A program made the translations under genes and the position numbers. Under the pieces are notes generated by a model. That model was given only the letters and a program-made list of their open reading frames with translations, had not been told where the DNA came from and made no database searches. From Hymenobacter gelipurpurascens (lineage in GTDB: Bacteria; Bacteroidota; Bacteroidia; Cytophagales; Hymenobacteraceae), in the NCBI RefSeq assembly GCF_900187375.1, contig NZ_FYEW01000001.1, positions 2,294,001 through 2,358,000 on the forward strand: DNA of 64,000 nt, written 5' to 3'. Of this stretch, positions 1-64,000 are shown piece by piece (the first letter of the stretch is position 1; each line of letters starts with the position of its first letter).

Positions 1-685
1 CCTGTGTCAGCTTATACTTGATTTCTTCGGCGTGCTCCAGCTGTTTTACTTCTTGCTCTACCTCCTCCTGGTTTTCATTATCGAGGCGGGCATCTTCCAG
101 CTCACTAAGCAGGAACGTGTGATAATCCAGCTCCTTGTTGGCCTGTGCAACCTGGTCTTCCAGTGCCTTCAGGTCGGCTTCCAGCTTGCGGTATTGGCGG
201 TGGGCATTGCTGTACTGGGCCCGGGTAGGCACTAGGCCAGCGTACAAGTCCAGCAGGTTGAGCTGAAACACCGCGTCGCCGAGCAGCAGCGTGTCGTGCT
301 GGGAGTGGATGTCCATCAGGTTGGCCCCGATGTTGCGCAGCGTTTCCAGCGTTACGGGCGTGTCGTTCACGAAGGCCCGTGACTTACCCGCCGGACTAAT
401 CTCGCGGCGCAAGATGCACTGCGTATCGTAGTCGAGGTCTTCGGCTTCGAAGATGTCCTGGAGCTGGTAGCTGGAGATGTTGAACTGGCCTTCAATCACG
501 CATTTTTTCTCCGTATCAAAGAGCATACGCGAGTCGGCGCGGTTGCCAAGCAGCAGGCCAATGGCGCCGAGCATAATGGACTTGCCGGCGCCGGTTTCAC
601 CCGTAATAATGTTGAGAAGAGCTGAAGGCCGTAGCTCCAGCTGCTCGATCAAGGCGTAGTTGCGAATGCGCAGGTCAACCAGCAT
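1..685 (-). CDS. recN: DNA repair protein RecN (N-terminal part, cut by window edge)
   Basis: This is the N-terminal part of RecN, an SMC-like ATPase of recombinational double-strand-break repair. The protein opens with MLVDLRIRNYALIEQLEL and a Walker A motif (TGETGAGKS) near residues 28-36. A Q-loop-like segment with DIHSQHDTLLL follows around residue 125, and then the start of the coiled-coil arm, rich in E, K and L. The coding frame is open to the window edge, so the C-terminal half lies outside. It is the last visible member of the minus-strand series bamD-rpoZ-coaC-coaB-DUF4835-recN, an order common in Bacteroidota. The identification is secure. Confidence 0.95.
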   Translation of the reverse strand, partial: MLVDLRIRNYALIEQLELRPSALLNIITGETGAGKSIMLGAIGLLLGNRADSRMLFDTEKKCVIEGQFNISSYQLQDIFEAEDLDYDTQCILRREISPAGKSRAFVNDTPVTLETLRNIGANLMDIHSQHDTLLLGDAVFQLNLLDLYAGLVPTRAQYSNAHRQYRKLEADLKALEDQVAQANKELDYHTFLLSELEDARLDNENQEEVEQEVKQLEHAEEIKYKLTQ

Positions 686-733
686 AGCAATTCCAAATGA
701 GGGCCGGGCAGCCGGCCATAGCTGAGAAAGAGA

Positions 734-774
734 GAAGCTACTACACCGCCCATGAGAGGAGGCATAGTAGCTTC
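734..774. repeat. Short inverted repeat between DUF4835 gene and recN
   Basis: GAAGCTACTA (734-743) pairs with TAGTAGCTTC (765-774) across a 21-base loop in the 150-base gap before recN. A third partial copy (AGCTACTAA) follows directly. There is no clear T-tract, so it could be a weak terminator, an attenuator or a small repeat. Confidence 0.4.
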
Positions 775-836
775 AACAAAGCTACTAACTCATTTAGTCA
801 GATACTACTATTATTCGCAAAAGATACTAAATTTTC

Positions 837-1757
837 TTACGGCTGCCGTACAATCGACTGGTACTTAGCCGAATTAGTAGGATCAACCTCCGAGAGCAAT
901 GTAGCCACTGCTACCTTCTGCTGCTGGTCGGGGCTGCTGCGGAACACGTTGGCAATTTCGTCGGATTTGGTGGTAAAAAACGACCGTGCCAGCAACGTGC
1001 CTGGCCTACGCTGCACCGCCTGCTGCACGCCTTGCAAGGCTGTGGCAATGCTGGCACGAGCTTCCTCCGGCTTCGTGATAAAGATATCCATTCCGCGGCG
1101 GTAGTAGGCGTAAATACCCGTCCGGAACGCTTCCAGCTGCGGATCCTGCAGGTTATTAAGCAGCCAATAGCGGTTATCGGGGCCCAAGTCTTTCCAGCCG
1201 TCGTCTTGCTCGTTGGTTGAGTTCTGCGAAGCAGCATTTGACAGCACAATCCGCGCCCGATCATAATATGGTGAGCCCCCTAGCGATGCAAAACTGTCTT
1301 GATCCATGCCAATAATGATATAGGCGTAGAAGGTCAGCAAGGAGGATAGGTTACCGACAAACGTGTTTTCGGAGTAATCTATGGGGTTTTGTGGCGTGTA
1401 GTTGAACCTCCAGCTCGGATCGGCGAAGCTGAGCAGATTGGTTTCGTAGCCGGTGCCGTATACGGGGCGGGTGCTTAGTACACGTACCGTGGCCACATAC
1501 GTGCCGTTCTGCGGAATCTGGCGGATACCCACGAAAAAGCGGCACCGTATTTTCTCCTGCGGACGATACGTTTGCCGCGTGAAGGAGCGCGTATTCAGAA
1601 ACGTCTGCATGTCGTTCTGCATCTGCTGCACCAGCTGGCGGTCCGAGATGGTCACGTTTTCCGTCGTGACGCGCACCTCGGCCAGAAGTTCCTGCGCGCG
1701 AACCGGGTAAGCCAGTAGCAGAGGCAGCAGCAGGAGCAACAGGGAGAGTTTACGCAT
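837..1757 (-). CDS. DUF4835 family secreted protein (PorD-like)
   Basis: This is a 306-residue exported protein. I chose the start at 1757 because it opens a typical signal peptide (MRKLSLLLLLLPLLLAYPVRAQ, cleavage after the AQ). An upstream in-frame start at 1805 would put 16 unlikely residues in front. The rest is rich in aromatic residues and Gln/Asn, with no catalytic motif I can name. Neighbourhood (next to coaB and recN) and length fit DUF4835. As far as I recall, some members of that family are annotated as type IX secretion protein PorD, and I cannot verify that here. The start overlaps the coaB stop in the string ATGCGTAA, so the two genes are probably translationally coupled. Confidence 0.8.
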   Translation of the reverse strand: MRKLSLLLLLLPLLLAYPVRAQELLAEVRVTTENVTISDRQLVQQMQNDMQTFLNTRSFTRQTYRPQEKIRCRFFVGIRQIPQNGTYVATVRVLSTRPVYGTGYETNLLSFADPSWRFNYTPQNPIDYSENTFVGNLSSLLTFYAYIIIGMDQDSFASLGGSPYYDRARIVLSNAASQNSTNEQDDGWKDLGPDNRYWLLNNLQDPQLEAFRTGIYAYYRRGMDIFITKPEEARASIATALQGVQQAVQRRPGTLLARSFFTTKSDEIANVFRSSPDQQQKVAVATLLSEVDPTNSAKYQSIVRQP

Positions 1758-2400
1758 GGTGAGAGAGGCGGGCAAGAACTGTCTGAACAATGTCGCGGGC
1801 CACATCGGCTTTGGGCTTCAACTCAAAGGTAGTGATTTGGCCCCCTGCCTCCAGCAGCGTCACCTTGTTGGTATCGTGGCGGAAACCGGCCCCAGCATCG
1901 CGCAAGGAGTTCAGCACCACCAGATCAAAGTTTTTGCGCCGAAGCTTATCGAGGGCGTAGGCCTGCTCGTTTGTAGTCTCCAACGCAAAACCCACGGAAT
2001 ATTGTTCAGGGCGTTTGGAGTGGCCTAGCGTACCGGCAATGTCCACGTTCTTCACTAGCTCCAGCGTGAGCGTATCGCCGTCTTTCTTAATCTTGTTTTC
2101 GGCAACAGTTTTGGGCTTGTAGTCGGCCACAGCCGCCGCAAACACCCATACATCAGCCTCCGGAGCTACCGCCGCCGCGGCAGCGTACATTTCATCGGCA
2201 GTCTGTACACGTTGGGTCTGAATGCGTGGGTGTGCCGGATCGGGCAGACTAGTTGGCCCACTTACAAGCGTTACTTCTGCCCCTTCTGCCGCAAAAGCCT
2301 CAGCCAGCGCGTAACCCATTTTACCGGTGCTGTGGTTGCCGATGAACCGAACGGGGTCAAGGGGCTCGTAGGTAGGGCCGGCAGTAATAAGGACGCGCAT
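1750..2400 (-). CDS. coaB: Phosphopantothenate--cysteine ligase, separate CoaB domain
   Basis: This is the synthetase half of coenzyme A biosynthesis, which joins 4'-phosphopantothenate to cysteine. The protein (216 residues from 2400) begins MRVLITAGPTYEPLDPVRFI, followed by GNHSTGKMGYALAE. This is the nucleotide-binding start of the CoaB domain, and the family motif DYKPK follows near residue 100. An in-frame ATG at 2430 would add ten residues, but those are encoded by the repeat arm upstream, so 2400 is preferred. In most bacteria CoaC and CoaB are one polypeptide of about 400 residues. Here they are two reading frames separated by a palindromic repeat. The gene ends inside the start of the DUF4835 gene. 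Confidence 0.93.
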   Translation of the reverse strand: MRVLITAGPTYEPLDPVRFIGNHSTGKMGYALAEAFAAEGAEVTLVSGPTSLPDPAHPRIQTQRVQTADEMYAAAAAVAPEADVWVFAAAVADYKPKTVAENKIKKDGDTLTLELVKNVDIAGTLGHSKRPEQYSVGFALETTNEQAYALDKLRRKNFDLVVLNSLRDAGAGFRHDTNKVTLLEAGGQITTFELKPKADVARDIVQTVLARLSHHA

Positions 2401-2421
2401 TCGAGGATCAGATAAATAACA

Positions 2422-2526
2422 GCACGTCATCCTGAGCAGAGCGAAGGACTTTCTCTCGCCTGAACGAGGCGCTAGGCCAGTCGTTCTCGCGAGAGAAAGT
2501 CCTTCGCTCTGCTCAGGATGACGTGC
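2422..2526. repeat. Palindromic element, family A, copy 1, between coaC and coaB
   Basis: This is a 105-base interspersed palindrome. The outer arm GCACGTCATCCTGAGCAGAG (2422 on) pairs with its complement ending at 2526, and the complementarity runs on through the AAGGACTTTCTCTCG stretch. The centre reads ACGAGGCGCTAGGCCAGTCG, the same centre as in the copies at 9059 and 17863. The arm sequence resembles REP/BIME-type repeats widespread in bacteria. The element supplies the last codons and stop of coaC. Confidence 0.9.
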
Positions 2527-3079
2527 CTTGTGATAGAAAAAACTGCTCCAGTTCCGTCATTATTTCTTCAGGCTCCAGCATGCGGCCGGGGCCCGCTAGG
2601 CCACTCGCCAGCTCACCCGAAGGCGAATCCCAGACGGTGGTGCCGTACTGGCGCAGGCGGGCAAGATTGGCCTGGGTGGCCGGGTGCTGGTACATATCCA
2701 GATCCATGGCTGGGGCCACGAACACAGGACAGCGAGCCGAGAGGTACACGGCATCTAGCAATGTGTCGCAGAGGCCGTTTGCCAGGTGGCCTAGCGTATT
2801 GGCCGAGGCTGGAGCAACCACCAGCGCATCGGCCCACAGGCCCAGGTGCACGTGGTTGTGCCATTCACCCGCGCGCTCATCCTTGATGAAACCCTGCAAA
2901 ACAGGTTTTTTGGAGAGCGTACCCAATGTAAGGGGCGTAACAAAGGCCGGGGCCGAGGGTGTCAGGATAACCTGTACCTCCGCCCCGGCCTTCACCAGGA
3001 GCCGCACCAATAGCGCCGATTTGTAGGCCGCAATGCTTCCGCAAACGCCCAGCAAAATCTTACGCCCGTGCAGCGACAT
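2513..3079 (-). CDS. coaC: Phosphopantothenoylcysteine decarboxylase, separate CoaC domain
   Basis: This is a flavin-dependent decarboxylase that makes 4'-phosphopantetheine for coenzyme A. The 188-residue protein starts MSLHGRKILLGVCGSIAAYK, the FMN-binding flavoprotein fold. It carries the family blocks HNHVHLGLWADALVVAPAS (active-site His region, about residues 74-92), APAMDLDMYQHP and ELASGLAGPGRM. The Cys of the E. coli substrate clamp (ACG) is replaced by ASG. From memory this is usual in Bacteroidota, so I do not read it as loss of function. The last residues, GTSS plus stop, are encoded by the repeat at 2422-2526, so the frame ends where a fused CoaBC would continue. Confidence 0.93.
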   Translation of the reverse strand: MSLHGRKILLGVCGSIAAYKSALLVRLLVKAGAEVQVILTPSAPAFVTPLTLGTLSKKPVLQGFIKDERAGEWHNHVHLGLWADALVVAPASANTLGHLANGLCDTLLDAVYLSARCPVFVAPAMDLDMYQHPATQANLARLRQYGTTVWDSPSGELASGLAGPGRMLEPEEIMTELEQFFLSQGTSS

Positions 3080-3102
3080 ATCGTTTTATAAGAACCGACC
3101 GA

Positions 3103-3453
3103 TTACTCAGGACGACGAGCAGGTGCTTCTGGCAGCACTTCCTCTTCGGGCGTGCGGTACATTACTTTGCCTTCCAAAAACTCCTCGATAGCCAGGTTGG
3201 TAGGCTTTGGCAGGCGCTCGTAGTGCTTGGAAATCTCGATTTGCTCGCGGTTCTCAAATACCTCTTCCAGGTTGTCAACCGTGGTAGCGAATTCAGCTAG
3301 CTTGCCATTCAGCTCCTCTTTCAGCTTCACGGCCAGTTGGTTAGCACGCTTCGAGATGATAGCAATGCTCTCGTACACGTTGCCGGTTTCATTGGCAAAC
3401 TCCGACATATTACGGGTCACGATGGAAGCGGAGAGGTTATTAGGAGTCTTCAT
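3103..3453 (-). CDS. rpoZ: RNA polymerase omega/Rpb6-like subunit
   Basis: This 116-residue protein is of the omega/Rpb6 family, which helps assemble and stabilise RNA polymerase. The recognisable core is NVYESIAIISKRANQLAVKL (about residues 26-45), followed by acidic and Glu-rich segments typical of the Bacteroidota version. It sits between bamD and coaC, the usual place in this phylum, with only 23 bases to coaC, which suggests a shared transcript. The assignment rests on the core motif and on synteny. Confidence 0.88.
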   Translation of the reverse strand: MKTPNNLSASIVTRNMSEFANETGNVYESIAIISKRANQLAVKLKEELNGKLAEFATTVDNLEEVFENREQIEISKHYERLPKPTNLAIEEFLEGKVMYRTPEEEVLPEAPARRPE

Positions 3454-3463
3454 ATGGCTTGAT

Positions 3464-3502
3464 CTTCTGATGTGCTGATTTTTGATGTACTAATGTGCTG
3501 TT
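3464..3502. repeat. Short degenerate direct repeats of a TGATGTGCTG-type unit
   Basis: The rpoZ-bamD gap holds three imperfect copies of a roughly 10-base unit (TGATGTGCTG, TGATGTACT, TAATGTGCTG) followed by a run of eight T. It is a small simple repeat, and I see no function. Confidence 0.45.
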
Positions 3503-3578
3503 TTTTTTATGGAGTTGGCATATTGCTGTCCATCGGCCCGTAGGCGCTGGCCAACAAATCAACCACATAACTAGCAGC

Positions 3579-4489: not shown

Positions 4490-6223
4490 CTATTTCTTCA
4501 CGGGCGTTTTCAAGGGAGCTGGCTTGGGGGTTGGCGTTGCCGCCTTTGGTGCGGTAGCAGGCTTTACGACGGGTGCTTTTTTCTTGACAGGAGCTTTTCT
4601 GGCCGCAGCTTTCTTTACGGTCACTTTCTTAGCGGGCTTGGCCGCAGACTTTTTCTTAGCCAGCGGCGCGAAGTGCTTTCCTAACGTCTGGCGGCGGGTG
4701 GGGCGTTCCTTGGGTCGCCAGCGCATGCCGGCAAGTTTCGATTCTTCGGGCTTTAGCTCATTGGGAGGTATGAAGCTGGCATCGGGGTTGGTCAGAAACG
4801 TGATGGTATTGAGTTTGCCTTCCGCAAAGCGCATGGCCATAGTCGCCGAAAGGGCCTTGTTCACGCCCGAAACGGCCGTGTCACCATCAAGAGCATAGTA
4901 GAGGCTCTCGGCGTTGCCAAGCACGTCAATTTTTTTTATCGACTTCTCCCCGAAATAGGCCACCATGTTGCGGCCCTTCACTTGGTTGAAGTTCAGCAAG
5001 GTATCCTGGCCTACACTGAACGCGTGGCCATAAAGCCGCATCTGGTCGATTTTACCCTTCCGCTGCTGAATCTCCATGCTGTCGGCGGTGAGCTGGTTTT
5101 TGTTGTTCCAGAGTACCGGATCGTGGCTCAGGTAGATGATGGAATCCTGCCGGTCGTAGGTCAGCGAGTCGCAGCGACCCTGCAGATCGGCGCGGAAAAT
5201 GCGGACTTTGCGGTAGGCGTAAATCACGCCGGCTTTGTTCTGAGGTGGCCTACCTTCCAGGCTCACCAGCGTATCGGCGGCCAGATAGAGCGTATCCTTC
5301 TGGTTGATGTTGCGCATTACGGGGGTGCCGTAGATTTTGGCCCGGCCCTGCGCCCGCCAATACCGGCCTACATCCCCGCGAATCACGATGTTATCCTTCT
5401 TGGCCGTCATCGAGACGTGGCCGGTAGCTACGCCGTACTGGTTGGCTTCATCGTAATACAGCTTGTCGCCACCGAGCAGATAATTGGGCGTCTCAATTTT
5501 GGCGTTGCTGGCGAAGTTCGAGACCTTCGTGACAGTGTTGTAGTTACCGTTTTCGGCATATAGGCTACCCTGTGGCCCTTTAATGCGCGTTGGACCGAAG
5601 AAGTAGGCAATCTTGGAGATGGTGTTGTACTGCAGCGTATCCGTATCGATGATGTTGTCCTTGGTGACGAGCTTCACGTTGCGCTTGAAGCTGAAGACCT
5701 TCGTAGCGGTGCTGTAGTAACCGAACTGGCTGTCGAGAGTGTTTTCGGGGTCCTGGAGGTGGCCGCCGGTGCTGTAGTAGGCCAGGTTGCGGTTCAGCTC
5801 GTAGTCGAGGAGCTGGGTGGTGAGCGTCATGCGCGGGTCGCGCAGGGTCACGTTGCCGGTTATGCGAGCCTTGCGGGTGTCGCCGTCGTAGAAGCCCCGG
5901 TCGCCGGTAATCGTGATGGTGTCGTTCTGGATGATGCGCACGTTGCTGAACGCTTCCAGCGCGTTGCGCTCCGTGTACTGGTAAGCCGAGTCGCAGAACA
6001 GCAGCGTAGTGCCCTGCTTCAGGCTCACGTTACCGAGCAGCTTCCGAATCTGAATGCCGTTGAAGGTGCCGCCTTCCAGTGCATCGGCCCGCACCAGCTC
6101 AATCGGCTGGCCTTTTTGGAGCGGCGAGGGCTGCGCGCCGGGCCGGGCCGGGCGCTGTTGAGCCACTCCCAGCAGTGGCAGCAGCGCGAGAAAGAGCAGA
6201 AAAACTGACTTCGATGACGACAT
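4490..6223 (-). CDS. OstA-like (LptA-related) periplasmic protein with Lys-rich tail
   Basis: This is a 577-residue secreted protein with a signal peptide (MSSSKSVFLLFLALLPLLGVAQ). Residues 40-460 are a long series of beta-strand repeats such as VRIIQNDTITITGDRGFYDG, ARITGNVTLRDPRMTL and ATGHVSMTAKKDN. These are characteristic of the OstA/LptA family that bridges lipopolysaccharide to the outer membrane. Bacteroidota carry such long OstA-like proteins. The last 70 or so residues are Lys/Ala/Pro-rich low complexity (AKKKSAAKPAKKVTVKKAAA and on), resembling a histone-H1-type tail. It is divergent from tilS. A role in LPS transport is inferred from the family. Confidence 0.85.
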   Translation of the reverse strand: MSSSKSVFLLFLALLPLLGVAQQRPARPGAQPSPLQKGQPIELVRADALEGGTFNGIQIRKLLGNVSLKQGTTLLFCDSAYQYTERNALEAFSNVRIIQNDTITITGDRGFYDGDTRKARITGNVTLRDPRMTLTTQLLDYELNRNLAYYSTGGHLQDPENTLDSQFGYYSTATKVFSFKRNVKLVTKDNIIDTDTLQYNTISKIAYFFGPTRIKGPQGSLYAENGNYNTVTKVSNFASNAKIETPNYLLGGDKLYYDEANQYGVATGHVSMTAKKDNIVIRGDVGRYWRAQGRAKIYGTPVMRNINQKDTLYLAADTLVSLEGRPPQNKAGVIYAYRKVRIFRADLQGRCDSLTYDRQDSIIYLSHDPVLWNNKNQLTADSMEIQQRKGKIDQMRLYGHAFSVGQDTLLNFNQVKGRNMVAYFGEKSIKKIDVLGNAESLYYALDGDTAVSGVNKALSATMAMRFAEGKLNTITFLTNPDASFIPPNELKPEESKLAGMRWRPKERPTRRQTLGKHFAPLAKKKSAAKPAKKVTVKKAAARKAPVKKKAPVVKPATAPKAATPTPKPAPLKTPVKK

Positions 6224-9058: not shown

Positions 9059-9171
9059 AAAAGCACGTCATCCTGAGTGCAGCGAAGGATCTACTCACGA
9101 TAGCACGAGGCACTAGGCCAGTCGTTCATACAAGGTAAGATACTTCGCTGCACTCAGGATGACGTGCTTTT
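9059..9171. repeat. Palindromic element, family A, copy 2
   Basis: AAAAGCACGTCATCCTGAGT at the left pairs with its complement ending GACGTGCTTTTTT at the right. The arms also contain GCAGCGAAGGAT, and the centre ACGAGGCACTAGGCCAGTCG is shared with copies 1 and 3. The rest of the 320-base gap between mdh and the rhomboid gene (8872-9191) holds only the mdh terminator and several CTAGGCCA motifs. Confidence 0.9.
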
Positions 9172-11177: not shown

Positions 11178-13244
11178 TCAGCGGTTAAAGAAGGCCTGTA
11201 GCTCGCTTAGCTCCAGCAGCACCAGCGTGCGGCGGCCATCGGGGGTGTAGCTGGGTACAGAACAGGCAAACAACTTGTCTACCAAGGCCGTCATTTCAAA
11301 TTCGGAGAGGCGGCTGCTGGCGGCGCTGGTGGCTACCCGGCGGGCCAGGGCGCGGGCCATCTGCTCGCGGCGGTCCAGCTTCACGGGCCCGGCGTGGTTG
11401 CGAAACTGCTCAATGAGGCCTTCCAGGAGCTCCTTCTCGTCGCGGGCCGGCACATCGGCCGGAATGCCTTCCACGGCAATGGTGTACTTGCCAAAATCGG
11501 TGAAGCGGAAGCCTAAAGCCTTTAGTGGCTCCTCTACTTCGCGCAGGATGGCAAAATCCTGGGGCGTAAACGTGACGGTACGCGGGAACAGCAGCGTCTG
11601 GGAAGCACTGGTTTCGCGCTCCAAAGCCTGCGCATACTGCTCAAACAGAATCCGCTCCCGCGCTGCCACCTGGTCAATCAGCATCACGCCCGATTTCACA
11701 GGCACCAGCAAATATTGCTGATGCAGCTGCAGCACTTTGTTGCCGGGCGCCACCGGAGCCGCCCGCAGCGGCAGCTCCGGCGAAGCGGCCGACGGCGCAG
11801 GCATTACAGTAAAGCCCTGCTCCGACTGGCCTACAGGCTCCGCTGGCAGCTCTAGGCCAGTTGGCAACATCAGCTCGGCGGGCGCCGGTGGAGTTTCCGC
11901 TTCCTCAGCTTGGCGGGCGGCGGCAATAGCAGCGGCGGAAGGCACAGGCACCCCGATAGCGGTGGCTTCGCGCTCCACATCGGGCACCTTCACTTGCTGC
12001 AGGCTTTTATAGAACTCCTCCAGCTCGCGCTTGGCTTGGTCGGTAGGCCTAGGCGGCAGCTGCCTTTCATACGCATCGGAACGGCCCGACCGGGACTCGC
12101 CTTTGCTGGGCGTACTCGCGGCGCGGGAAGCCGCGGAGGCCAGCGCATCGGGCTTAAAATCAGCTGCAAACGGATTCTGCTCGTTGCCGGACAGGCGTAG
12201 CGGCTGAATGGGAGCAAAATTCACGTCGCCCTCGAAATCCAGGGACGGGGCCATATTGTGCAGGCCCAGGCTCTGCTTCACGGCGGCCCGCACAATGGCG
12301 TACACGGTCTTCTCGTCCTCGAACTTGATTTCCGTTTTGGTGGGGTGCACGTTGATGTCGATGGTCTTGGGGTCGAGCTCCAGAAACAGCACGTAGAACG
12401 GGTGCGTGTCTTTGGGCAGCAGGCCCTCATAGGCCGTGAGCACGGCGTGGTTAAGGTAAGCCGAGCGGATGAACCGGTTGTTCACGAAGAAAAACTGGTC
12501 GCCCCTACTCTTCTTGGCTGATTCTGGCTTGCCGATGAACCCGCGCACCGAAATAAACGGCGTCACTTCCTCTACTTGCGCCAGCTGCTCCTTGTAGCCA
12601 TTGCCCAACAATGACACAATCCGCTGGCTCAGCTTGCCGGCAGGCAGGTTGAACACTTCCAGGTCATTCTGGAAAAGCGAGAAGCCGATCTGCGGATTAG
12701 CCAGCGCCACGTGCTGAAACTCATCCAGAATATGCCGCATCTCTACCGCATTGCTCTTGAGGAAGTTGCGGCGGGCCGGCACATTAAAAAACAGGTTTTT
12801 CACCGCAATACTGGTGCCGTCGGGGCAGGCTACGGGCTGCTGACTCGTTATCTGAGAGCCTTCTACCAGCAGCAGGCTGCCGGTATCCTGGCCGCGTTGC
12901 TTGGTGCGCAGCTCCACTTGGGCCACGGCCGCTATACTGGCCAGGGCCTCTCCCCGAAACCCCAGCGTGCGGATACGAAACAGATCGTCGGTGGTGCGAA
13001 TTTTGCTGGTAGCATGGCGCTCTAAGCTCATGCGTGCATCGGTGGCCGACATGCCGGTGCCGTTGTCCACAACTTGGACTAATTGTTTACCCGCTTCCTT
13101 GATGATGAGCTGCACCTGCGTGGCGCCGGCATCAACGGCATTTTCGAGTAGCTCTTTTACCGCGGAAGCGGGTCGCTGCACTACTTCGCCGGCCGCAATC
13201 TGGTTAGCTAAATATTCAGGAAGCAGTTGAATAATATCCGCCAT
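11178..13244 (-). CDS. mutL: DNA mismatch repair protein MutL
   Basis: MutL couples MutS mismatch recognition to strand removal. The 688-residue protein has the GHKL ATPase start (ENAVDAGATQVQLI, VDNGTGM, TLGFRGEALASIAAV). A disordered Pro/Ala/Ser-rich linker runs from about residue 350 to 480, and a C-terminal dimerisation domain follows. In that domain the place of the metal-binding endonuclease motif DQHAxxExxxxE reads DQVAARERILFE (about residues 518-530). The usual CPHGRP-type site near the end reads TPDGRRT. So the canonical endonuclease residues are not complete. The frame is intact and the length is normal. Confidence 0.95.
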   Translation of the reverse strand: MADIIQLLPEYLANQIAAGEVVQRPASAVKELLENAVDAGATQVQLIIKEAGKQLVQVVDNGTGMSATDARMSLERHATSKIRTTDDLFRIRTLGFRGEALASIAAVAQVELRTKQRGQDTGSLLLVEGSQITSQQPVACPDGTSIAVKNLFFNVPARRNFLKSNAVEMRHILDEFQHVALANPQIGFSLFQNDLEVFNLPAGKLSQRIVSLLGNGYKEQLAQVEEVTPFISVRGFIGKPESAKKSRGDQFFFVNNRFIRSAYLNHAVLTAYEGLLPKDTHPFYVLFLELDPKTIDINVHPTKTEIKFEDEKTVYAIVRAAVKQSLGLHNMAPSLDFEGDVNFAPIQPLRLSGNEQNPFAADFKPDALASAASRAASTPSKGESRSGRSDAYERQLPPRPTDQAKRELEEFYKSLQQVKVPDVEREATAIGVPVPSAAAIAAARQAEEAETPPAPAELMLPTGLELPAEPVGQSEQGFTVMPAPSAASPELPLRAAPVAPGNKVLQLHQQYLLVPVKSGVMLIDQVAARERILFEQYAQALERETSASQTLLFPRTVTFTPQDFAILREVEEPLKALGFRFTDFGKYTIAVEGIPADVPARDEKELLEGLIEQFRNHAGPVKLDRREQMARALARRVATSAASSRLSEFEMTALVDKLFACSVPSYTPDGRRTLVLLELSELQAFFNR

Positions 13245-13550: not shown

Positions 13551-16502
13551 ATGCTCAAAGACTTTCGGATTGGACTTTTCCTTTTAGTACTGGCCATTAC
13601 GGGTCTGATCATTTCCTCCTCCGCTCCGCGCGCGGAAGAAGTGCGCCCCATGTCGGTAGCTGAACAGAACTGGGTGGATAGTGTCTTCAACTCGCTCACG
13701 CCCGACCAGCGCCTAGGCCAGTTGTTTATGGTGGCGGCTTACTCCAACAAGGACCGTAAGCACGTGCAGTACACGGAGTTTCTGGTAAAGAATTATGGCA
13801 TTGGGGGCGTGATGTTCCTGCAGGGCGGCCCGCGCCGGCAGGCCATCTTGGCCAACCGCTACCAAGCCGCTTCTAAAGTGCCGCTGCTCGTAGCCATGGA
13901 TGCCGAATGGGGCCTGGATATGCGCCTTGACAGCTCCATGCACTTCGCCAAGGGCATGACCCTAGGTGCCATGGACGACGACCAGTACGTGTACCAGATG
14001 GGCCGCGAAATTGCCCTCAAGATGAAGACGCTGGGCGTGCACGTGAGCTTCTCGCCGGTTATCGACGTCAACTCCAACCCCAGCAACCCCGTTATCGGCA
14101 ACCGTTCTTTTGGGGAGATCAAGGAGCAGGTAGCCAAGCACGGAGTGGCCTACATCCGGGGCCTGCAGGATCATGGCATTATGGCTGTGGTAAAGCACTT
14201 CCCCGGTCACGGCGACACCGATGTCGACTCGCACGTAGCCTTGCCGGTTATCAATTCCGACATGGCCCGCCTGACCAATGTTGACCTCTACCCTTTCCAG
14301 AAGTCGTTTCAGGCGGGCGTAATGGGCGTGATGGTAGGCCACCTCTACATGCCGCTTCTTGATACAGTGCGGTCGTTATCAGCTACCATCTCCAAGAACC
14401 TTGTAACGGGGCTCCTAAAAGAGAAAATGGGCTACCGGGGCCTTGTCTTTACGGATGCCCTGAACATGAAGAGTGTATCCAGCCTCTACAAGCCCGGCGA
14501 ACTAGATGCGCTGGCACTGGTAGCCGGCAACGATGTGCTCCTCTTCTCGGAAGATGTGCCGATGGCCATCCAGAAAATCAAGGAGACGCTGGCGGCTGGC
14601 CAACTCAACCAGGCCGATATAGACTCTCGGGTGCGGAAGATTTTGCGGGCCAAATATTGGGCCGGCCTCAACCGCTACCAGCCCATCGACTTGCCCAATC
14701 TGATGACAAACCTGAACCGGGCCACCAGCCGCACGGTGCAGCAACAGATTTATGAGCACGCCACCACGGTAGTGAAAAACGAGGACGACCTGCTGCCCTT
14801 CAGCCGGCTGGATACCGTGCGCATTGCCTCCGTTACCATTGGCTCCGATGCACTGACCTACAAGGAGATAATGGGTAAGTACCAGAACGGCCCCGTGTAT
14901 GCGGTGCCCAACCGCTACGCCCCTGACTCTTCGTTCACGCGCCTGCTCACACGCCTCACGCCTTATAACGTAGTGGTAGTGAGCCTGCACAACATGAACA
15001 ATACGCCTGCCCATAACTACGGTATTGGGGAAGGCGCCTTGAAATTCCTGAAAAACCTGCAGGCTAACCCGCGCGTCAAAACGGTGGTCATTGCCTTTGG
15101 CAATGCCTATGCCCTGAAGCACCTGGCCGATGCTCGCACCCTGGTATGTGGCTACGAAGACAACTATGCCTCGCAACTGGTAATGCCCCAGGTGCTGTTT
15201 GGTGCTCTGTCGGCTAAAGGGCGCTTGCCCGTTACGGTTTCGGAAACTCTGAAGGCAGGCCTAGGCGTACCAACGCCCGACCTCAAGCGCCTGCGCTACG
15301 GCACGCCGGAAGCCGTAGGCCTAGACTCGCGCGTACTCGCCCAGATTGACAACGTAGCGCTGGAATCAGTGGCCTACGCGGCCGCTCCGGGCTGCCAGGT
15401 GCTGGTGGCCAAGGATGGAATGGTGGTCTTTGATAAGAGTTACGGCTACTGCACCTACGATAAGTCGCAGCCAGTGAATAGTAGCACCCTGTACGATCTG
15501 GCTTCCGTAACGAAGGTTGCTGGTACGCTACAGGCTATCATGTACCTTAAAGACCAAGGCAAGCTCAACATTGATGACCGAGTAGCCTCCTACCTGCCGG
15601 AGCTGAAAGCCACAAACAAAAAGGACATGACGGTTCGGGAAGTATTGATGCACCAAGCCGGCTTGAAGCCAGGCATTAGTACCTGGGAGAAGACCATCAC
15701 CAAAACAGGTCCTAAGCCAACGTTCTACGCCAGCACCGCTTCCCCCGAATTTTCCCGCGAAGTAACCCCCGACCTCTACAGCCTCAGAACCGCCGATGAC
15801 TCTGTTTGGCGTTGGGTGCAGCGCTCCAGCTTGCTGCCTAAGGTGAAGGGCAAATACCCCGTAGAATACAGCGACCTGAGCTTCATTATCCTGAAGCGCG
15901 TAGCCGAGAAAGTGCTCCAGCAACCTATTGATGCTTTCCTGCAGAAGAATTTCTACCAGCCGCTAGGCCTAGGCACCATGACCTACAACCCGCTGGAGAA
16001 ATTCCCCAAGTCGTGCATTGCGCCTACGGAGAACGACACGTACTTCCGGCGGGCCTTGCTGCAGGGCACCGTACACGACCAAACCGCCGCTATGGTGGGC
16101 GGTGTGGGCGGCCACGCGGGCTTATTCTCCAACGCCAACGACCTGGCTATTCTGATGGAGATGAACCTACAGAACGGCCGCTACGGTGGGCAGCGCTTCT
16201 TCCAGACGCCGGTAGTAACGGAGTTTGCCAACAGCAAAGAAGCCGGCAGCCGCCGGGGCCTGGGCTGGGACCGTGGCGACCCAAGCAAGCCCGAAGGCCC
16301 CACCAGCAACCTGTCGCCGGCCAGCACGTTTGGTCACACGGGCTTCACTGGCACCTGCGTCTGGATGGACCCCGAAAACAAAATCCTCTACATCTTTCTT
16401 TCTAACCGCGTGTACCCCGATGCCGGCAATAACAAGCTGCGTCAGTACAACATCCGCACCCGTATCCACGACGTAATTTATAAGTCGCTGCAGAAGACAT
16501 GA
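13551..16502 (+). CDS. GH3 beta-N-acetylhexosaminidase fused to a beta-lactamase-like serine hydrolase
   Basis: This is a 983-residue exported two-enzyme protein with an N-terminal hydrophobic signal. Residues 40-380 are a GH3 NagZ-type hexosaminidase: KHFPGHGDTDVDSH at 215-228 carries the His/Asp dyad typical of NagZ. Residues 380-580 resemble the GH3 C-terminal domain. From about residue 590 a class C beta-lactamase/PBP-like domain follows, with Ser652-x-x-Lys655 (SVTK), YSDLSF as the YxN-like motif and HTGFTG near the end. Such fusions occur in Bacteroidota and are thought to act on peptidoglycan fragments. The substrate is inferred. A terminator follows. Confidence 0.9.
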   Translation: MLKDFRIGLFLLVLAITGLIISSSAPRAEEVRPMSVAEQNWVDSVFNSLTPDQRLGQLFMVAAYSNKDRKHVQYTEFLVKNYGIGGVMFLQGGPRRQAILANRYQAASKVPLLVAMDAEWGLDMRLDSSMHFAKGMTLGAMDDDQYVYQMGREIALKMKTLGVHVSFSPVIDVNSNPSNPVIGNRSFGEIKEQVAKHGVAYIRGLQDHGIMAVVKHFPGHGDTDVDSHVALPVINSDMARLTNVDLYPFQKSFQAGVMGVMVGHLYMPLLDTVRSLSATISKNLVTGLLKEKMGYRGLVFTDALNMKSVSSLYKPGELDALALVAGNDVLLFSEDVPMAIQKIKETLAAGQLNQADIDSRVRKILRAKYWAGLNRYQPIDLPNLMTNLNRATSRTVQQQIYEHATTVVKNEDDLLPFSRLDTVRIASVTIGSDALTYKEIMGKYQNGPVYAVPNRYAPDSSFTRLLTRLTPYNVVVVSLHNMNNTPAHNYGIGEGALKFLKNLQANPRVKTVVIAFGNAYALKHLADARTLVCGYEDNYASQLVMPQVLFGALSAKGRLPVTVSETLKAGLGVPTPDLKRLRYGTPEAVGLDSRVLAQIDNVALESVAYAAAPGCQVLVAKDGMVVFDKSYGYCTYDKSQPVNSSTLYDLASVTKVAGTLQAIMYLKDQGKLNIDDRVASYLPELKATNKKDMTVREVLMHQAGLKPGISTWEKTITKTGPKPTFYASTASPEFSREVTPDLYSLRTADDSVWRWVQRSSLLPKVKGKYPVEYSDLSFIILKRVAEKVLQQPIDAFLQKNFYQPLGLGTMTYNPLEKFPKSCIAPTENDTYFRRALLQGTVHDQTAAMVGGVGGHAGLFSNANDLAILMEMNLQNGRYGGQRFFQTPVVTEFANSKEAGSRRGLGWDRGDPSKPEGPTSNLSPASTFGHTGFTGTCVWMDPENKILYIFLSNRVYPDAGNNKLRQYNIRTRIHDVIYKSLQKT

Positions 16503-45973: not shown

Positions 45974-46081
45974 GAGAGAAATGGTTAAGGCCTGAGAACG
46001 GCTGAAATTATCTATTTCCGCGGCAATCCGTTGATGTAGGGAGTGGCCTAGGCCACTGAGTCTGGTTCCCTACTCTTTCCT

Positions 46082-53093: not shown

Positions 53094-53115
53094 TCGTATT
53101 TGGTTACTAAGTGGC

Positions 53116-53865
53116 CTAGGCCACGGCTTTACCAGCATAGCCGGGCAGCGTCATCTGCGCCCGCGCCAGTTGCCGAATGGCTACCAGATGCCCCAACAAC
53201 ACGATGGGCACCACTACAGCCGGCAGCCACACGAAAGGGAACTTCAGGATAGCCACATTGGGCTGCTCAAAGGCAACCTGCTGCAGGGGCATTGGCGACG
53301 ACAGGATGGCCCACGCTACAATATTGAGGAGCAAAGCCAGCGCTACCACATGCCAGATCAGCAATGTTGCCCGGGAAATACGGGGGTGCGTGAAACCCCA
53401 AAAGCCTACAAGCGGCGCCGTGAGTCCTGCCACAATATCCCAGTTGCGCCCTTCAAACGTCATCAGCTGCGGCACTTGCCCCGCCAGAAACAACCCATAT
53501 AATACCAGCTCCACCGGCACGCGCACCACGTTAAGATACGTCAGGTGGCCTAGCGGCAGGGCATCCAGAAACCGTCGACCGGGTTTGGTAGCAAACAGCG
53601 CCCCCATCACCAGCAGCGTCGGCAGAATGGCGAATAGTAACAGGCGCGGTGGCCTAGGCGCCAGCTCCTGATAAAACCCTTGCACTGCCAGCCCGGCCTG
53701 CACAGCCAGCCATGCTGCCAGGCCTAGCAACACGGCTCCTACAGCTTTAGGAGCAGCCCGGCGCACCGCCAGCCAGAACCACAATACGGTTCCGAGCGTG
53801 ATGGCGCCAAAGGCAACGGCTAACCCTACCGGGGCTGCAGTATGCAAGTAAGCGGGCTGAACCAT
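53116..53865 (-). CDS. Multi-pass membrane protein of unknown function
   Basis: This 249-residue protein has about seven hydrophobic helices (APVGLAVAFGAITLGTVLWF, AVGAVLLGLAAWLAVQAGLA, LLLFAILPTLLVMGALF, VPVELVLYGLFLAGQ, ATLLIWHVVALALLLNIVAW, FVWLPAVVVPIVLLGHLVAI). Charged loops such as EGRNWDIVAGLTAPLVGFWG separate them. I do not recognise the family. It lies 14 bases from the ABC-2 permease gene, in the same direction, so it probably belongs to that transcript. Confidence 0.75.
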   Translation of the reverse strand: MVQPAYLHTAAPVGLAVAFGAITLGTVLWFWLAVRRAAPKAVGAVLLGLAAWLAVQAGLAVQGFYQELAPRPPRLLLFAILPTLLVMGALFATKPGRRFLDALPLGHLTYLNVVRVPVELVLYGLFLAGQVPQLMTFEGRNWDIVAGLTAPLVGFWGFTHPRISRATLLIWHVVALALLLNIVAWAILSSPMPLQQVAFEQPNVAILKFPFVWLPAVVVPIVLLGHLVAIRQLARAQMTLPGYAGKAVA

Positions 53866-59413: not shown

Positions 59414-59459
59414 TTTAATCAGAATTCGTGAAATTCGACGAATCCGTCTACATCCGTGC

Positions 59460-60599
59460 TTACTGGAAGTACTCCTTCACTTTCTCGAAGAAGCCTTTCT
59501 CGTTTTTGCCGGGGTTCGGGGTGAAATTCTGGGCATTGCGCAGCTTCTCCAGCAGCTCCCGCTCCTCGCCGGTCACGTTCTTCGGCGTCCAGACGCTGAG
59601 GTGGATAAGCTGGTCGCCGCGGCCGTAGCCGTTGAGGTCTTTGATGCCTTTGCCACGCAGGCGCAGGATCTTACCAGGCTGGGTACCGGGATCTACTTTG
59701 ATTTTCACCTTGCCCTCAATGGTCGGCACCTCAATGCTCGCGCCCAAAGCGGCATCTACGAACGAGATGTACTGCTCGAACATGATGTTGTTGCCGTCGC
59801 GCTTCAGCAGCTCGTGCGGCTCCTCTTCAATCTGAATGAGCAGGTCGCCGGCCACACCGCCGCGCTCGGGGTAGTTGCCTTTGCCGTTCATGGAAAGCTG
59901 CATGCCTTCCGCTACGCCAGCCGGAATATTGATTGGAATAACCTCCTCGTGGAGCTGGCGGCCTTCACCGTGGCAGACATCGCACTTGCTGGTTACCACT
60001 TTGCCTTCGCCGTTACAGGTGGGGCAGGTAGCGGTACTCACCATTTGGCCTAGCATGGTGTTTACCACACGCTTCACTTGGCCCTGGCCATGACAAGTAC
60101 CACAGTCGCGCAGGTCGGTGCCGTTTTTGGCGCCAGTGCCTGTGCAGGTGGTACAAGCTACGTAGCGCTTCACCTTAATCTTTTTCTCGACGCCGTTGGC
60201 TACTTCCTCCAGATCGAGCTTCAGCTTGATGCGCAGGTTGGAGCCTTTGCGTACGCGCCGACCGCCCTGACCGCGGCCACCGCCGCCAAAGAAGCCCTCG
60301 AAGCCGCCGCCCCCGAAGATGTCGCCGAACTGAGAGAAAATGTCCTCCATGTTCGGGCCACCGCCGTTGCCGCCCATGCCCTGGTGGCCGTACTGGTCGT
60401 AACGGGCACGCTTGTTCTGGTCCGATAGTACCTCGTAGGCCTCTGCGGCTTCCTTGAACTTGTCTTCGGCCGTCGGGTCGTCGGGGTTTTTATCGGGGTG
60501 AAACTTGATGGCCACCTTGCGGTAGGCCTTCTTGATTTCATCCGCCGCCGCGTTTTTGGCTACGCCCAGCACCTCGTAATAATCTCGCTTCGCTGCCAT
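59460..60599 (-). CDS. dnaJ: Chaperone protein DnaJ
   Basis: DnaJ is an Hsp40 co-chaperone that delivers substrates to DnaK and stimulates its ATPase. The 379-residue protein has the J domain ([23 protein letters not shown] at FHPDKNPDD) and a Gly/Phe-rich region ([20 protein letters not shown]). Four zinc-finger CxxCxGxG repeats follow ([32 protein letters not shown]), and then the client-binding domain. All parts of a type I DnaJ are intact. It is in the same minus-strand pair as grpE (48 bases apart). No dnaK lies in the window. Confidence 0.97.
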
Positions 60600-60647
60600 T
60601 TCTTACTTACAACATCAGTCAGGCCTCGTCAGCCTGTGCAACTACAA

Positions 60648-61229
60648 TTACTGGCCTAGCACCACTTTGGCATGACGGATCACCTTGTCGCCGAGGTAAT
60701 AGCCCTTCTCTACCTCATCCACGATTTTTCCTTTCAGGTCTTCCGAGGGAGCCGGAATCTGGGTAATGGCTTCGTGCAGATCAGGATCAAACGCGCCACC
60801 TTTCGCTTCCATGGGGGCAAGGCCCTTCTGGTTGAGCGTTTTCTGGAGCTTGCCGGAAATAATCTCGATGCTTTCGCGCACGGCGTTGGCATCCTGGGTG
60901 TCTTTGGTATGATGACGAGCCCGGTCGAAATCATCAAGCACAGGCAGCAACGCTACCATTAGCTCCTGGTTAGCAGTCTTGAACAAATCAGCGCGCTCCT
61001 TGGTGGTGCGGCGCTTGTAGTTTTCAAACTCAGCGGCCAAGCGCAGGTATTTATCCTTCAGATCCGCCAACTCGGCTTCCGTTTTGGAGCCTGTCGTCTG
61101 CTGTCCCTCCGGACCTTCTACCTCCCCTATTTCGGGGGCATTAGGCTCTTGGGGCAGTTCACCAGCTACATGATCAGCGGTTTGGTCGAATTGAGTTTCT
61201 TCGGATTGGGGTGTTTTATCGTCAGCCAT
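60648..61229 (-). CDS. grpE: Nucleotide exchange factor GrpE
   Basis: GrpE releases ADP from DnaK. The 193-residue protein starts at 61229 (MADDKTPQSEETQFDQTADH). An open frame to 61322 has an Arg-rich extension that no GrpE has. After a disordered acidic start comes the long coiled-coil (LADLKDKYLRLAAEFENYKR, residues 60-80) and the beta-domain with PVLDDFDRARHH, EAKGGAFDPDLHEAI and VEKGYYLGDKVIRHAKVVLG. The dnaJ gene follows, as in many Bacteroidota. It shares its upstream region with a divergent unknown gene. Confidence 0.96.
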   Translation of the reverse strand: MADDKTPQSEETQFDQTADHVAGELPQEPNAPEIGEVEGPEGQQTTGSKTEAELADLKDKYLRLAAEFENYKRRTTKERADLFKTANQELMVALLPVLDDFDRARHHTKDTQDANAVRESIEIISGKLQKTLNQKGLAPMEAKGGAFDPDLHEAITQIPAPSEDLKGKIVDEVEKGYYLGDKVIRHAKVVLGQ

Positions 61230-61315
61230 TTTCGCTTGAAATCGTCGGAATGGGTTGAATCTTGAGGACATACGTAGCGGCACCGGGCGCAAGGAACTTG
61301 CCAAAGCCCTAATCA

Positions 61316-61330
61316 GTGCCAATTTGGCAC
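61316..61330. promoter_or_regulatory. Candidate operator GTGCCAA-T-TTGGCAC
   Basis: This is a perfect 7-base inverted repeat about one base in the 192-base region between grpE (leftward) and the 61422 gene (rightward). It differs from the CIRCE heat-shock operator (TTAGCACTC-N9-GAGTGCTAA). Its position suggests a regulatory site for grpE-dnaJ, the small gene, or both. Confidence 0.4.
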
Positions 61331-61421
61331 GAGAACTACAACTACTTAGGGTTTAGTTCGGACGAGGTGACGTAAAGCCGCATTATCGCACTAGTTTCGG
61401 GCTACTTACTCTACCTTCCTT

Positions 61422-61763
61422 ATGCACATTAACTTAACCCGTGACAGTGTAGCCATGGGCGATGATGTGGACGCTCCGCACGCGCACCGCTTCAGTATGC
61501 CTGATGGTAGCACACTGGCTCAAGTGCTACAAACTGTGCTCAGTCAGCGTTATTTAGCTTCCATTACTGGCGGCGAGGCCACGTGGGTAGCGCTGCTAGA
61601 GCAGAAACCAATAGCAGTGCTAGCCCAACAATGGCAGCAGCCGGTGTTACTAGGCCCCGACTTAGTGCTGCCACCCAATGTGGCGGTACAGTTGCATTTC
61701 CGCTACCGTACGCAGCAAGACCCGGAAGAAGTACTGGCAGAACTACGTAAGCAAGCTGTTTAA
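61422..61763 (+). CDS. Small protein of unknown function
   Basis: This is a 113-residue soluble protein ([20 protein letters not shown]) that I do not recognise. It has the segments [20 protein letters not shown] and [20 protein letters not shown], no signal and no membrane helix. Its stop codon overlaps the converging obgE stop in the palindrome TTAA. Transcription reads away from grpE. The coding pattern (no internal stops, GC at third positions) is like that of real genes nearby, so I keep it. Confidence 0.68.
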
Positions 61764-62821
61764 GCTTCTTCTTGTTCGTCGTCGTTGCTACGGTAGCCAC
61801 CACGCGTAGACTCTGCGGCATCGAGGCGTGACTGCTGCAGCGCCTCCCAAATCAGGTCTTTGAGCTTCTGGATGTTCTTGTTCGTCAAGCTGGAAATAAA
61901 GACGGTCGGCAGATCCGTGGGGAGTACCTGACGGATTTCTTCTTCCAGTTCCTCGTCCAGCATATCGGATTTGGTAATGGCCAGCAAACGCCTCTTCTCC
62001 AGCAAGTCTGGGTTGAACTGCTGCAATTCGCTGAGCAGCACTTCATATTCGGCCGCAATATCCGGGGAGTCGCAGCTGATCATGAACAGCAGAATAGAGT
62101 TGCGCTCAATATGACGCAGAAAGCGTGTGCCGAGGCCTTTGCCTTCCGCCGCGCCCTCAATGATGCCCGGAATATCGGCCATCACAAACGACTTATAGTC
62201 GCGGTAGGCCACTACGCCCAGGTTTGGGGTAAGTGTGGTGAAGGCGTAATCCGCAATCTTCGGCTTCGCGGCCGAAACTACGGATAGCAACGTGCTTTTA
62301 CCAGCGTTGGGGAGGCCCACCAGGCCTACGTCGGCCAGCAGCTTCAGCTCCAGAATCACCCACTCGTCAATGCCAGGCTCGCCGGGCTGAGCGTAGCTGG
62401 GCGCTTGGTTGGTGGCTGATTTGAAGTGGTCGTTGCCGAGGCCGCCGCGGCCGCCCGGCGTTAGGATCAGGCGCTGGCCATCTTCCGTTATTTCCAGCTT
62501 CTTCTCACCGGTTTCAGCATCGCGGGCAATAGTACCTAGGGGTACCTGAATGATAATATCGTCGCCTTGGGCACCGGAGCGCAGGTTTTCGCCTCCACCC
62601 TCTCCTGCTTTCGCAATCAAGTGCTTCTGGTACTGCAGGTGCAGCAGCGTCCAAAGCTGGGAGCTGCCTTCCAGAATAATATGTCCGCCGCGGCCACCAT
62701 CACCGCCATCGGGACCACCGTTGGGCAGGCCTTTGGCGCGGAAAAAGTGGTGCGACCCCGCTCCGCCTTTGCCGGAGCGGCAGTTAATCTTAACGTAATC
62801 GATGAAGTTATTGGAAGCCAT
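61760..62821 (-). CDS. obgE: GTPase ObgE/CgtA
   Basis: ObgE is an essential GTPase tied to the 50S ribosomal subunit and stress responses. Start 62821 gives [20 protein letters not shown]; an ATG at 62929 would extend it by 36 odd residues. The Obg fold shows its glycine-rich repeats ([33 protein letters not shown]). The G domain starts with [12 protein letters not shown] (G1), and the G3 motif is [24 protein letters not shown] (G4) follows, and the C-terminus ends in a short acidic tail. It lies next to adk on the same strand, as usual in this phylum. Confidence 0.97.
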
Positions 62822-62846
62822 GCTACTGCGCGCAATTAAAAAACGG

Positions 62847-62888
62847 CATCCCGAGCACTCAGCGTAAGTACGCCGAATGCTCGGGATG
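62847..62888. repeat. Short palindrome before obgE
   Basis: CATCCCGAGCACTCAGCGTA and TACGCCGAATGCTCGGGATG are near-complementary. It lies between adk and obgE, just upstream of the obgE start. Confidence 0.75.
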
Positions 62889-62931
62889 ACAGAGGGTTCT
62901 GCCACTACCCAAGCGGGTAGCAGCGGCAAAG

Positions 62932-63555
62932 TTACGCTTTTACTTCGTCGGTTGCCTGCCGGCTTCCTTCGGTGGTTGCAGGCTGGTTCTGATCGAGGAT
63001 TGTACAGATCTGCCCGAAGATGTCTTCGATGGCTCCAATGCCGTTCAGGGCATGGAATTTCTGCTGTTGGGCATAGTAGCCAGCCACTTGCGCCGTCTCA
63101 GTATTATAGACTGTCACGCGCTTCCGGATTTTGGTTTCGTCCTGGTCGTCGGGGCGGCCGGAGGTTTTGCCACGCTCCAAAAGGCGCTTCACCAGTTCTT
63201 CTTCAGCCACTTCCAGCGCCACCATGCACGACACCTTGGTGTTATGTTGGCCTAGCAACTGGTCGAGGCTTTCGGCCTGGGGCACGGTGCGGGGGAAGCC
63301 ATCGAAAATAAAGCCAGCGGCCTGTTTATTGGCGTTCAAGGCGTGGTCGATCATGCCGATAACTACTTCATCGGGCACCAAAAGCCCCTCGTCCATCAGT
63401 TTTTTTGCCCGTAGGCCTAGGTCCGTGCCCTGCGCGATTTGAGCGCGAAGCAGGTCGCCAGTAGACAGATGCACCAGGTTATAGCGGGCAATGAGCTTCT
63501 GGCTTTGCGTTCCTTTGCCGGCACCGGGAGGGCCGAAGAGCACGAGATTCAGCAT
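62932..63555 (-). CDS. adk: Adenylate kinase
   Basis: Adk interconverts ATP + AMP and 2 ADP. The 207-residue protein starts [20 protein letters not shown] (P-loop). It has the AMP-site block [37 protein letters not shown] and the LID arginines ([20 protein letters not shown]). The LID is short and lacks the zinc-binding cysteines. The 23 C-terminal residues are an Asn/Thr/Gln-rich tail. It lies in the hpt-adk-obgE order typical of Bacteroidota. Confidence 0.96.
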
Positions 63556-63665
63556 GGCAAGCGGGGAGTTTCGCGAGGAAAGGGAAAACGTGGTGTTTGG
63601 GAAAGATAAGCAATGCGGGGGAATGCCCCTGTACGCAGACCAGCGAATTTTAGCTGGCGCGGCGC

Positions 63666-64000
63666 CTACACGGCCTTATATACATCGGGGTAATTTCGGC
63701 CTAGGCCATCATAATCAAGCCCGTAGCCCACAATAAAATCGTTCGGAATGCTCAGGCCTACATAGCGCAGGCTCAGCTCGTGCTGCAGGCACTCGGGCTT
63801 CAGGAACAGCGTCGCTACTTCCAAGGAAGCCGGCTGTTTGGCACCTAGTGTATCCAGCAGCATACGCATGGTATGGCCGGTGTCAACTATGTCTTCTAGA
63901 ATGACCACATGCCGGCCGTTAATTTCCTGAGACAGGCCTAGCACCTCCTGCACTTTGCCGGTGCTGCTGGTGCCTTGGTAAGAAGCTACTTTGATGAAGG
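63666..64000 (-). CDS. hpt: Hypoxanthine phosphoribosyltransferase (C-terminal part, cut by window edge)
   Basis: This enzyme salvages hypoxanthine or guanine with PRPP. Visible is about the last 111 residues: FIKVASYQGTSSTGKVQEV, then the PRPP-binding signature HVVILEDIVDTGHTMRMLLD, ATLFLKPE and the base-binding block VGLSIPNDFIVGYGLDYDGL. The N-terminus lies outside the window. Gene order hpt-adk-obgE supports the call. Confidence 0.93.
   Translation of the reverse strand, partial: FIKVASYQGTSSTGKVQEVLGLSQEINGRHVVILEDIVDTGHTMRMLLDTLGAKQPASLEVATLFLKPECLQHELSLRYVGLSIPNDFIVGYGLDYDGLGRNYPDVYKAV

Follow-up and report, generated by a model that had tools for sequence, protein, structure and literature searches.

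Genome-wide iterated words that come in dialects are best known from two transformable families and from the cyanobacteria. In the Neisseriaceae, the DNA uptake sequence (DUS) has eight dialects that follow the species tree, its CTG core is needed for transformation, and the dialects limit exchange between species (PMC3630211); the same study reports overlapping inverted pairs for the DUS of Simonsiella. In H. influenzae and N. gonorrhoeae, uptake sequences are reported to be less over-represented the more mismatches they carry (PMC1939737). Within the phylum Bacteroidota, transformation of Riemerella columbina favours its own DNA, and the k-mer table in the same paper holds only A/T-rich words (PMC7965970), so that self-preference has been reported in the phylum but no tag is known for it; in Riemerella anatipestifer, transformation depends on proteins of unknown function in addition to ComEC, DprA, ComF, and RecA (PMC8459023). 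Here we examine a short word iterated through 64,000 nucleotides of another member of this phylum, Hymenobacter gelipurpurascens (positions 2294001–2358000 of contig C1, NZ_FYEW01000001.1, in genome G000; hereafter the window). Among titles and abstract starts of the open-access literature, we found no paper describing an iterated word in Hymenobacter or Pontibacter. A preliminary description of the window had pointed out the repetition; beyond it, we find that other clade-specific words exist beside this one and that this word is nearly absent from acquired-looking stretches. The words are labelled A (STAGGCCWST, the word of the window; S is C or G, W is A or T), B (ASCTAGST), C (CCTAGG), D (GGGTAGG), E (AGGTATAG), and F (GCTAGC).

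Anatomy and density of the word

The octamer CTAGGCCA/TGGCCTAG has 69 exact copies in the window against 2.94 expected (standard deviation 1.61, maximum 7, in 100 dinucleotide shuffles) and no other 8-mer of the window is as over-represented by order-2 Markov score. The preliminary description, which had counted at least 60 copies by eye, was right about this iteration, and each of the 14 positions it quoted is no more than 3 bases away from a copy. Nor is the enrichment local: the genome holds 4306 octamers (2137 forward and 2169 reverse) in 5,060,948 bases, or 851 per Mb, which is not near expectation. Our control, CTAGGCCA read backwards, has 91 genome copies but contains GATC, which is depleted in the genus, so that 4306 against 91 overstates the enrichment and we do not rely on this ratio; fairer figures are 69 against 2.9 in the window and, for the ten-base word, the 56-fold and 41-fold given below. 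GATC itself has an observed/expected ratio of 0.45 in the H. gelipurpurascens sequence and of 0.01 to 0.27 in three sets of Hymenobacter relatives (0.00 to 0.27 by set over loci L043 to L083, L078), and its near absence from many Hymenobacter stretches suggests a separate avoidance.

A logo built around the core from the window and 20 further stretches of the same genome (464 kb) extends the octamer to STAGGCCWST, ten bases with almost flat flanks outside them. The full word is asymmetric, not a palindrome. It bears out the proposal that TAGGCC is the core and GTAGGCC a frequent related form, with C or G at position 1, A or T at position 8, and two more positions (S and T) that belong to the word. 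It is distributed over the window as follows:

1..64000, no strand assigned: STAGGCCWST, iterated throughout, with 73 ten-mers (35 forward, 38 reverse) and 69 copies of its octamer core CTAGGCCA

The genome as a whole has 4967 ten-mers, balanced between strands (2477 and 2490), or 981 per Mb. Single changes at the six core positions occur at 0.2 to 1.4 of expectation, the only enriched one-change variants being the allowed ones, G at position 1 and T at position 8, at about 7-fold each. CTAG outside the word remains depleted (observed/expected 0.54). The fall of enrichment with mismatches is steep: in 504 kb of H. gelipurpurascens sequence (a set drawn up without the motif-free stretch L014, stretch L208, and contig C4), the observed/expected ratio under base composition is 56, 3.05, 1.08, and 0.97 at 0, 1, 2, and 3 mismatches, and against an order-2 resample it is 41, 2.26, and 0.92 at 0, 1, and 2 mismatches. 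The corresponding values in 154 kb from seven relatives that do not have the word are 0.69, 0.75, and 0.95 at 0, 1, and 2 mismatches.

Ten-mer density on the sampled stretches of contigs C1, C2, and C3 is 0.93, 1.13, and 1.02 per kb, the C1 value including a word-poor segment, C1:1440001-1480000 (the adjoining stretches L014 and L208), with one ten-mer in 40 kb. L014 encodes a P-type ATPase and a 1467-amino-acid open reading frame (ORF) that joins AcrB-type (resistance-nodulation-division, RND) and outer-membrane efflux domains. On contig C4, six ten-mers fall in the first 160 kb and 56 in the 120 kb after that, at 0.3 to 0.6 copies per kb. Judged by the lack of the word and by their gene types, these stretches of C1 and C4 appear to have been acquired. 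The word would also serve to mark recently acquired DNA. C4 (L157, L189 to L201) has the look of a mosaic of younger and older DNA. Among the five smallest contigs, C6 has two copies in 5.2 kb, C7 and C8 have none in 9.6 kb together, and C5 and C9 have masked bases.

One explanation of this distribution is that an abundant architectural (nucleoid) protein binds the word to organise the chromosome, and that selection or drive maintains about one site per kb. The even density on C1, C2, and C3 and the use of both orientations agree with it, and clade-specific words would follow changes in the protein. However, gaps between octamers are near random rather than regular (variance over squared mean 1.07, with some surplus of short gaps), and the C4 part and the 40-kb segment are nearly devoid of the word. 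It is also unusual for nucleoid proteins to be specific for ten bases so strictly that one-off versions stay near background. We regard this explanation as decidedly unlikely.

Placement, strand, and codon context

Placement was scored in 624 kb (L014, L208, and C4 set aside), with coding, intergenic, codon, and repeat counts based on simple longest-ORF gene calls of at least 90 amino acids. Coding DNA holds 416 ten-mers (0.77 per kb) and intergenic DNA 182 (2.09 per kb), with 52 at borders; the word is found in genes and spacers alike, as the preliminary description had said, and the spacers are 2.7 times denser.

The word could in principle arise as a side effect of codon usage, of mutation bias, or of dispersed repeats. 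Codon choice does show an imprint: 260 of the 358 CTR codons before GGCC are CTA, against 1361 of 10390 in other contexts, and some copies lie in REP-like (repetitive extragenic palindromic) repeats. Yet shuffling synonymous codons within genes leaves 29.3 coding octamers where 326 are observed, the octamer is enriched 2.5 to 43-fold in all five reading frames that have no in-frame TAG, the density is higher outside genes, the one-off versions of the core stay at 0.2 to 1.4 of expectation, and repeats account for just 34 of the 576 octamers. Codon usage and dispersed repeats are therefore both rejected as the cause, the former having been named in the preliminary description as a possible full explanation, and a by-product of any of these kinds is extremely improbable. 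The CTA excess before GGCC instead means that the word shapes codon choice.

Some of the 34 copies in repeats lie at the centre of REP-like hairpins, two of them in the window:

2424..2524, no strand assigned: REP-like inverted repeat, with CTAGGCCA at 2472-2479 in its middle
9065..9165, no strand assigned: second REP-like inverted repeat, with CTAGGCCA at 9113-9120 in its middle

The REP-like element with ACGTCATCCTGA arms is found at 2424-2524, 9065-9165, 36425, and 47775; two of these copies are inverted repeats and have CTAGGCCA 48 bases from their start. Further hairpin families outside the window likewise hold the word mid-hairpin.

A second arrangement is the overlapping inverted octamer pair TGGCCTAGGCCA, of which the 624 kb hold 36 against 1.4 expected (taking the four bases before the octamer as random). 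Sequence counts place two in the window:

46044..46055, no strand assigned: overlapping inverted octamer pair TGGCCTAGGCCA
53112..53123, no strand assigned: second overlapping inverted pair TGGCCTAGGCCA

Genic CTAGGCCA lies 114 times on the strand of the gene and 115 times against it, and we rejected an RNA-level signal. The genic ten-mer is split 159 on the gene's strand against 257, and the in-frame TAG that one of the three gene-strand frames would contain fits the direction of this split. Strand counts sampled on contig C1 differ between 20 stretches no more than by chance (heterogeneity p 0.20, octamer; 0.87, ten-mer) and do not follow GC skew; the strand bias raised in the preliminary description was thus not found there, and an oriented signal like Chi or KOPS (FtsK-orienting polar sequences) was rejected. 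These data bear on the broader idea of a Chi-like, lineage-specific signal for recombination or repair, which a helicase-nuclease or some other conversion enzyme would read. A conversion step favouring the word would yield the same drive, and Chi sites are short words that differ between lineages. Chi is oriented, however, and our word shows no strand bias and no link to GC skew; words B and C, moreover, are palindromes. We consider a signal of this kind very unlikely.

Carriers, sister words, and candidate readers

Comparison with the related Hymenobacter genomes, which the preliminary description had called for, showed the octamer in bulk in 4 of the 120 genomes of the genus: H. gelipurpurascens (4306), H. 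fodinae (G024, 4554), H. wooponensis (G119, 4381), and G111 (2587). The next count is 544, and the five genomes carrying B or C that hold 341 to 544 octamers are well below the four A carriers. Among 395 genomes sampled from the class, a set that does not hold the three sister carriers, the ten-mer is in bulk only in H. gelipurpurascens, and the next genome has 102.

Sister words were first seen in stretches of 20 further genomes and in 80 named loci around mutL. ASCTAGST has 6974 sites in H. cavernae (G013), 6129 in G019, and 6632 in G105, and at most 1076 in the other 117 of the 120 genomes. CCTAGG has 8806 sites in G070, 8591 in G086, and 7530 in G054; it is also raised in the three ASCTAGST genomes (5585-5949) and the four A carriers (1209-2331), whose words often contain CCTAGG, and it does not exceed 888 elsewhere among the 120. 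In the 204 family genomes counted, AGGTATAG reaches 1397 to 2713 per strand in 12 of the 50 genomes of group g5, which the named loci L094, L095, L096, and L102 point to as Pontibacter, the sister genus; G158 of this group is intermediate (435 and 398). The mismatch-0 ratio of E is 100 under base composition and 2.8 against an order-2 resample, and its standing rests on the whole-genome counts. Word D (loci of H. ginkgonis, UV11, citatus, and profundi) is doubtful and not counted as secure; its intergenic/coding ratio is only 1.2, and it is biased by gene strand (25 to 67). Word F, seen in one 22-kb locus (L078), is doubtful as well. Weaker or unclear iterated words, among them GGGGCCCC, the gene-strand-biased GGGTAGG, and GCTAGC, were seen at L069 (H. 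nivis), L074, L077, L087, L052, and L078.

The spacer preference recurs in the sister carriers, and B, C, and E show it too, with an intergenic density 2.0 to 4.6 times the coding density. Convergent spacers at first seemed to be favoured over divergent ones, but this was not reproduced in the sister genomes and was dropped.

Relationships among the carriers, and part of the comparison of sites between species, were read from a gene of the window that lies outside the word system:

11178..13244, minus strand: mutL, marker for the tree and for the between-species site comparison

Near it, at 13551-16502 of the window, a 983-amino-acid ORF combines a glycoside hydrolase family 3 domain with a following beta-lactamase-type domain. 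The MutL tree, with 68 rows, places A and E on a single branch each (support 100 and 99, respectively); C takes two changes, and the full set of labels takes nine. This is a quick single-gene tree with labels taken from about 22 kb per genome, the doubtful D and F included. Word C is carried separately by Solirubrum puertoriconensis and by the pair H. setariae/BT559.

Individual copies turn over between species. In five comparisons of the H. gelipurpurascens sequence with relatives that have the same word (mutL and comEC regions, 81 to 83 percent identity), the TAGGCC core is kept at 83 of 168 aligned sites, against 5 of 53 in two non-carriers at 81 to 82 percent identity (Fisher p 5e-8, a value that is too small since the same H. 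gelipurpurascens sites recur across several comparisons). Pairs of sister carriers, outside this pooled count, keep the core at 0.49 to 0.54. For the stricter STAGGCCW, with gapped sites set aside (3, 2, and 1, respectively), 19 of 34 sites are kept in H. fodinae, 9 of 24 in H. wooponensis, and 1 of 22 in H. latericoloratus. Turnover with modest extra conservation is as expected of a word kept by drive and not site by site.

The word could be a signature coupled to a DNA methyltransferase, in the manner of the highly iterated palindromes (HIP) of cyanobacteria: it would be methylated, and methylation-guided repair or self/non-self discrimination would keep its frequency high. At 981 per Mb, the ten-mer comes near the 1000 to 2000 per Mb of HIP (the octamer has 851 per Mb), and every cyanobacterial genome with highly over-represented sequences is reported to have a candidate methyltransferase (PMC4390886). 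The palindromic nature of B and C also suits this explanation; the asymmetry of STAGGCCWST does not. Four methyltransferase families were scored. PF00145 (C5 methyltransferase), present in 45 of the 120 Hymenobacter genomes, has no match in H. gelipurpurascens or G111, which led us to reject C5 methylation as the common cause; PF01555, present in 72, is found in H. gelipurpurascens and is absent from G024, G111, and G119; PF02384, present in 100, is absent from G111; and PF07669, present in 106, is absent from G119. None of the four families tested is thus common to all four A carriers, further methyltransferase families and other kinds of reader having been outside the search, and each carrier may have an unrelated enzyme. 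The likeness to HIP1 drawn in the preliminary description consequently fails for the asymmetric word A and holds in that related lineages have palindromic words; the methylation role it raised gains no backing from these four families. We judge a methyltransferase-linked signature to be unlikely.

A possible sequence-biased exchange of DNA, and known systems

We favour, tentatively and at somewhat less than even likelihood, the reading of the word as a DUS-like self-recognition tag in double-stranded DNA, spread by biased exchange. A sequence-specific DNA-binding protein would read STAGGCCWST in either orientation, word-bearing DNA would be preferred in some exchange step, and copies would accumulate wherever sequence may change freely (molecular drive). 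The closest model for this step would be natural transformation in which uptake is biased by sequence, as for DUS and the uptake signal sequence (USS), with machinery that does without type IV pili, and the readers of related lineages would have other preferences and hence other words. The anatomy of the word, its density, strand symmetry, and placement, its near absence from acquired-looking DNA, its clade restriction, the other words of relatives, and its mismatch profile are observed; a protein reader and a biased exchange step are inferred. We count in favour of such a tag the density of about one copy per kb, the absence of strand bias, the steep mismatch profile, the spacer preference, the near absence from acquired-looking DNA, the words that differ between clades (A and E on one branch each), the overlapping inverted pairs (36 against 1.4), the self-preference of R. 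columbina in transformation, and the presence of ComEC (PF03772) in 119 of 120 Hymenobacter genomes, the exception being 82 percent complete.

Several points weigh on the other side. ComEC is equally present in genomes that do not have the word and so does not separate the carriers. No match to the pilus/secretion ATPase family PF00437 was found in any carrier of A, B, or C among the 120 genomes, in each of which 14 of about 30 first-look candidates were scored. (A full-length PF00437 ATPase exceeds the cut-off in 3 of the 120 genomes, at L143, L144, and L145 of G112, G036, and G099.) In the five same-word alignments, the kept fraction of control six-mers is 0.24 to 0.41, and word sites are only modestly above that. 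We found no uptake data for the genus Hymenobacter, and no DUS or USS is known to be a palindrome, as words B and C are. Finally, the drop from 0 to 1 mismatch is 27-fold (after subtracting 1), below the 82 to 92-fold quoted for DUS and USS (PMC1939737). The lack of a pilus match and the palindromic form of B and C keep us from rating an uptake tag higher.

If the tag reading is extended to the family, the Hymenobacteraceae may have a pilus-independent, sequence-specific DNA exchange with fast-changing dialects, in which STAGGCCWST, ASCTAGST, CCTAGG, and AGGTATAG would mark self DNA in thousands of copies for a putative receptor with a conserved TAG core and would raise barriers between clades. 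This wider scheme is possible though rather unlikely; if true, it would be the first such pilus-independent exchange system shown in Bacteroidota. In any case, four strongly enriched words in one family, with close relatives that have none, are a natural experiment on word origin, the reader gene, and exchange barriers, and the word could be of use in designing DNA for the transformation of genera that resist genetic manipulation.

Among the described systems, oriented chromosome signals such as Chi and KOPS resemble the word in being short, frequent, and different between lineages, and differ from it in that STAGGCCWST has neither an orientation bias nor a link to GC skew. The cyanobacterial HIP1 and related highly iterated palindromes share the clade specificity and the existence of related genomes that do not have the word, the ten-mer comes close to their abundance at about 1000 copies per Mb, and ASCTAGST and CCTAGG are palindromes like them; STAGGCCWST, however, is asymmetric, and its carriers have none of the four tested methyltransferase families in common. 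The DUS of the Neisseriaceae and the USS of the Pasteurellaceae are alike in being words of 9 to 12 bases with thousands of copies on both strands, denser in permissive regions, with a steep mismatch profile, clade-specific dialects, and, in some genomes, overlapping inverted pairs. They differ in that the host here belongs to the Bacteroidota, no type IV pilus ATPase was found in the carriers, some of the related words are palindromes, and uptake is putative. The word is accordingly assigned neither to DUS/USS, whose pilus machinery was not found in the carriers and whose preferred uptake would be putative here, nor to the HIP class, as it is not a palindrome. DUS dialects follow the species tree, and in our quick single-gene tree A and E lie on one branch each and C takes two changes; where the DUS have a CTG core, the words of the Hymenobacteraceae have TAG in common.

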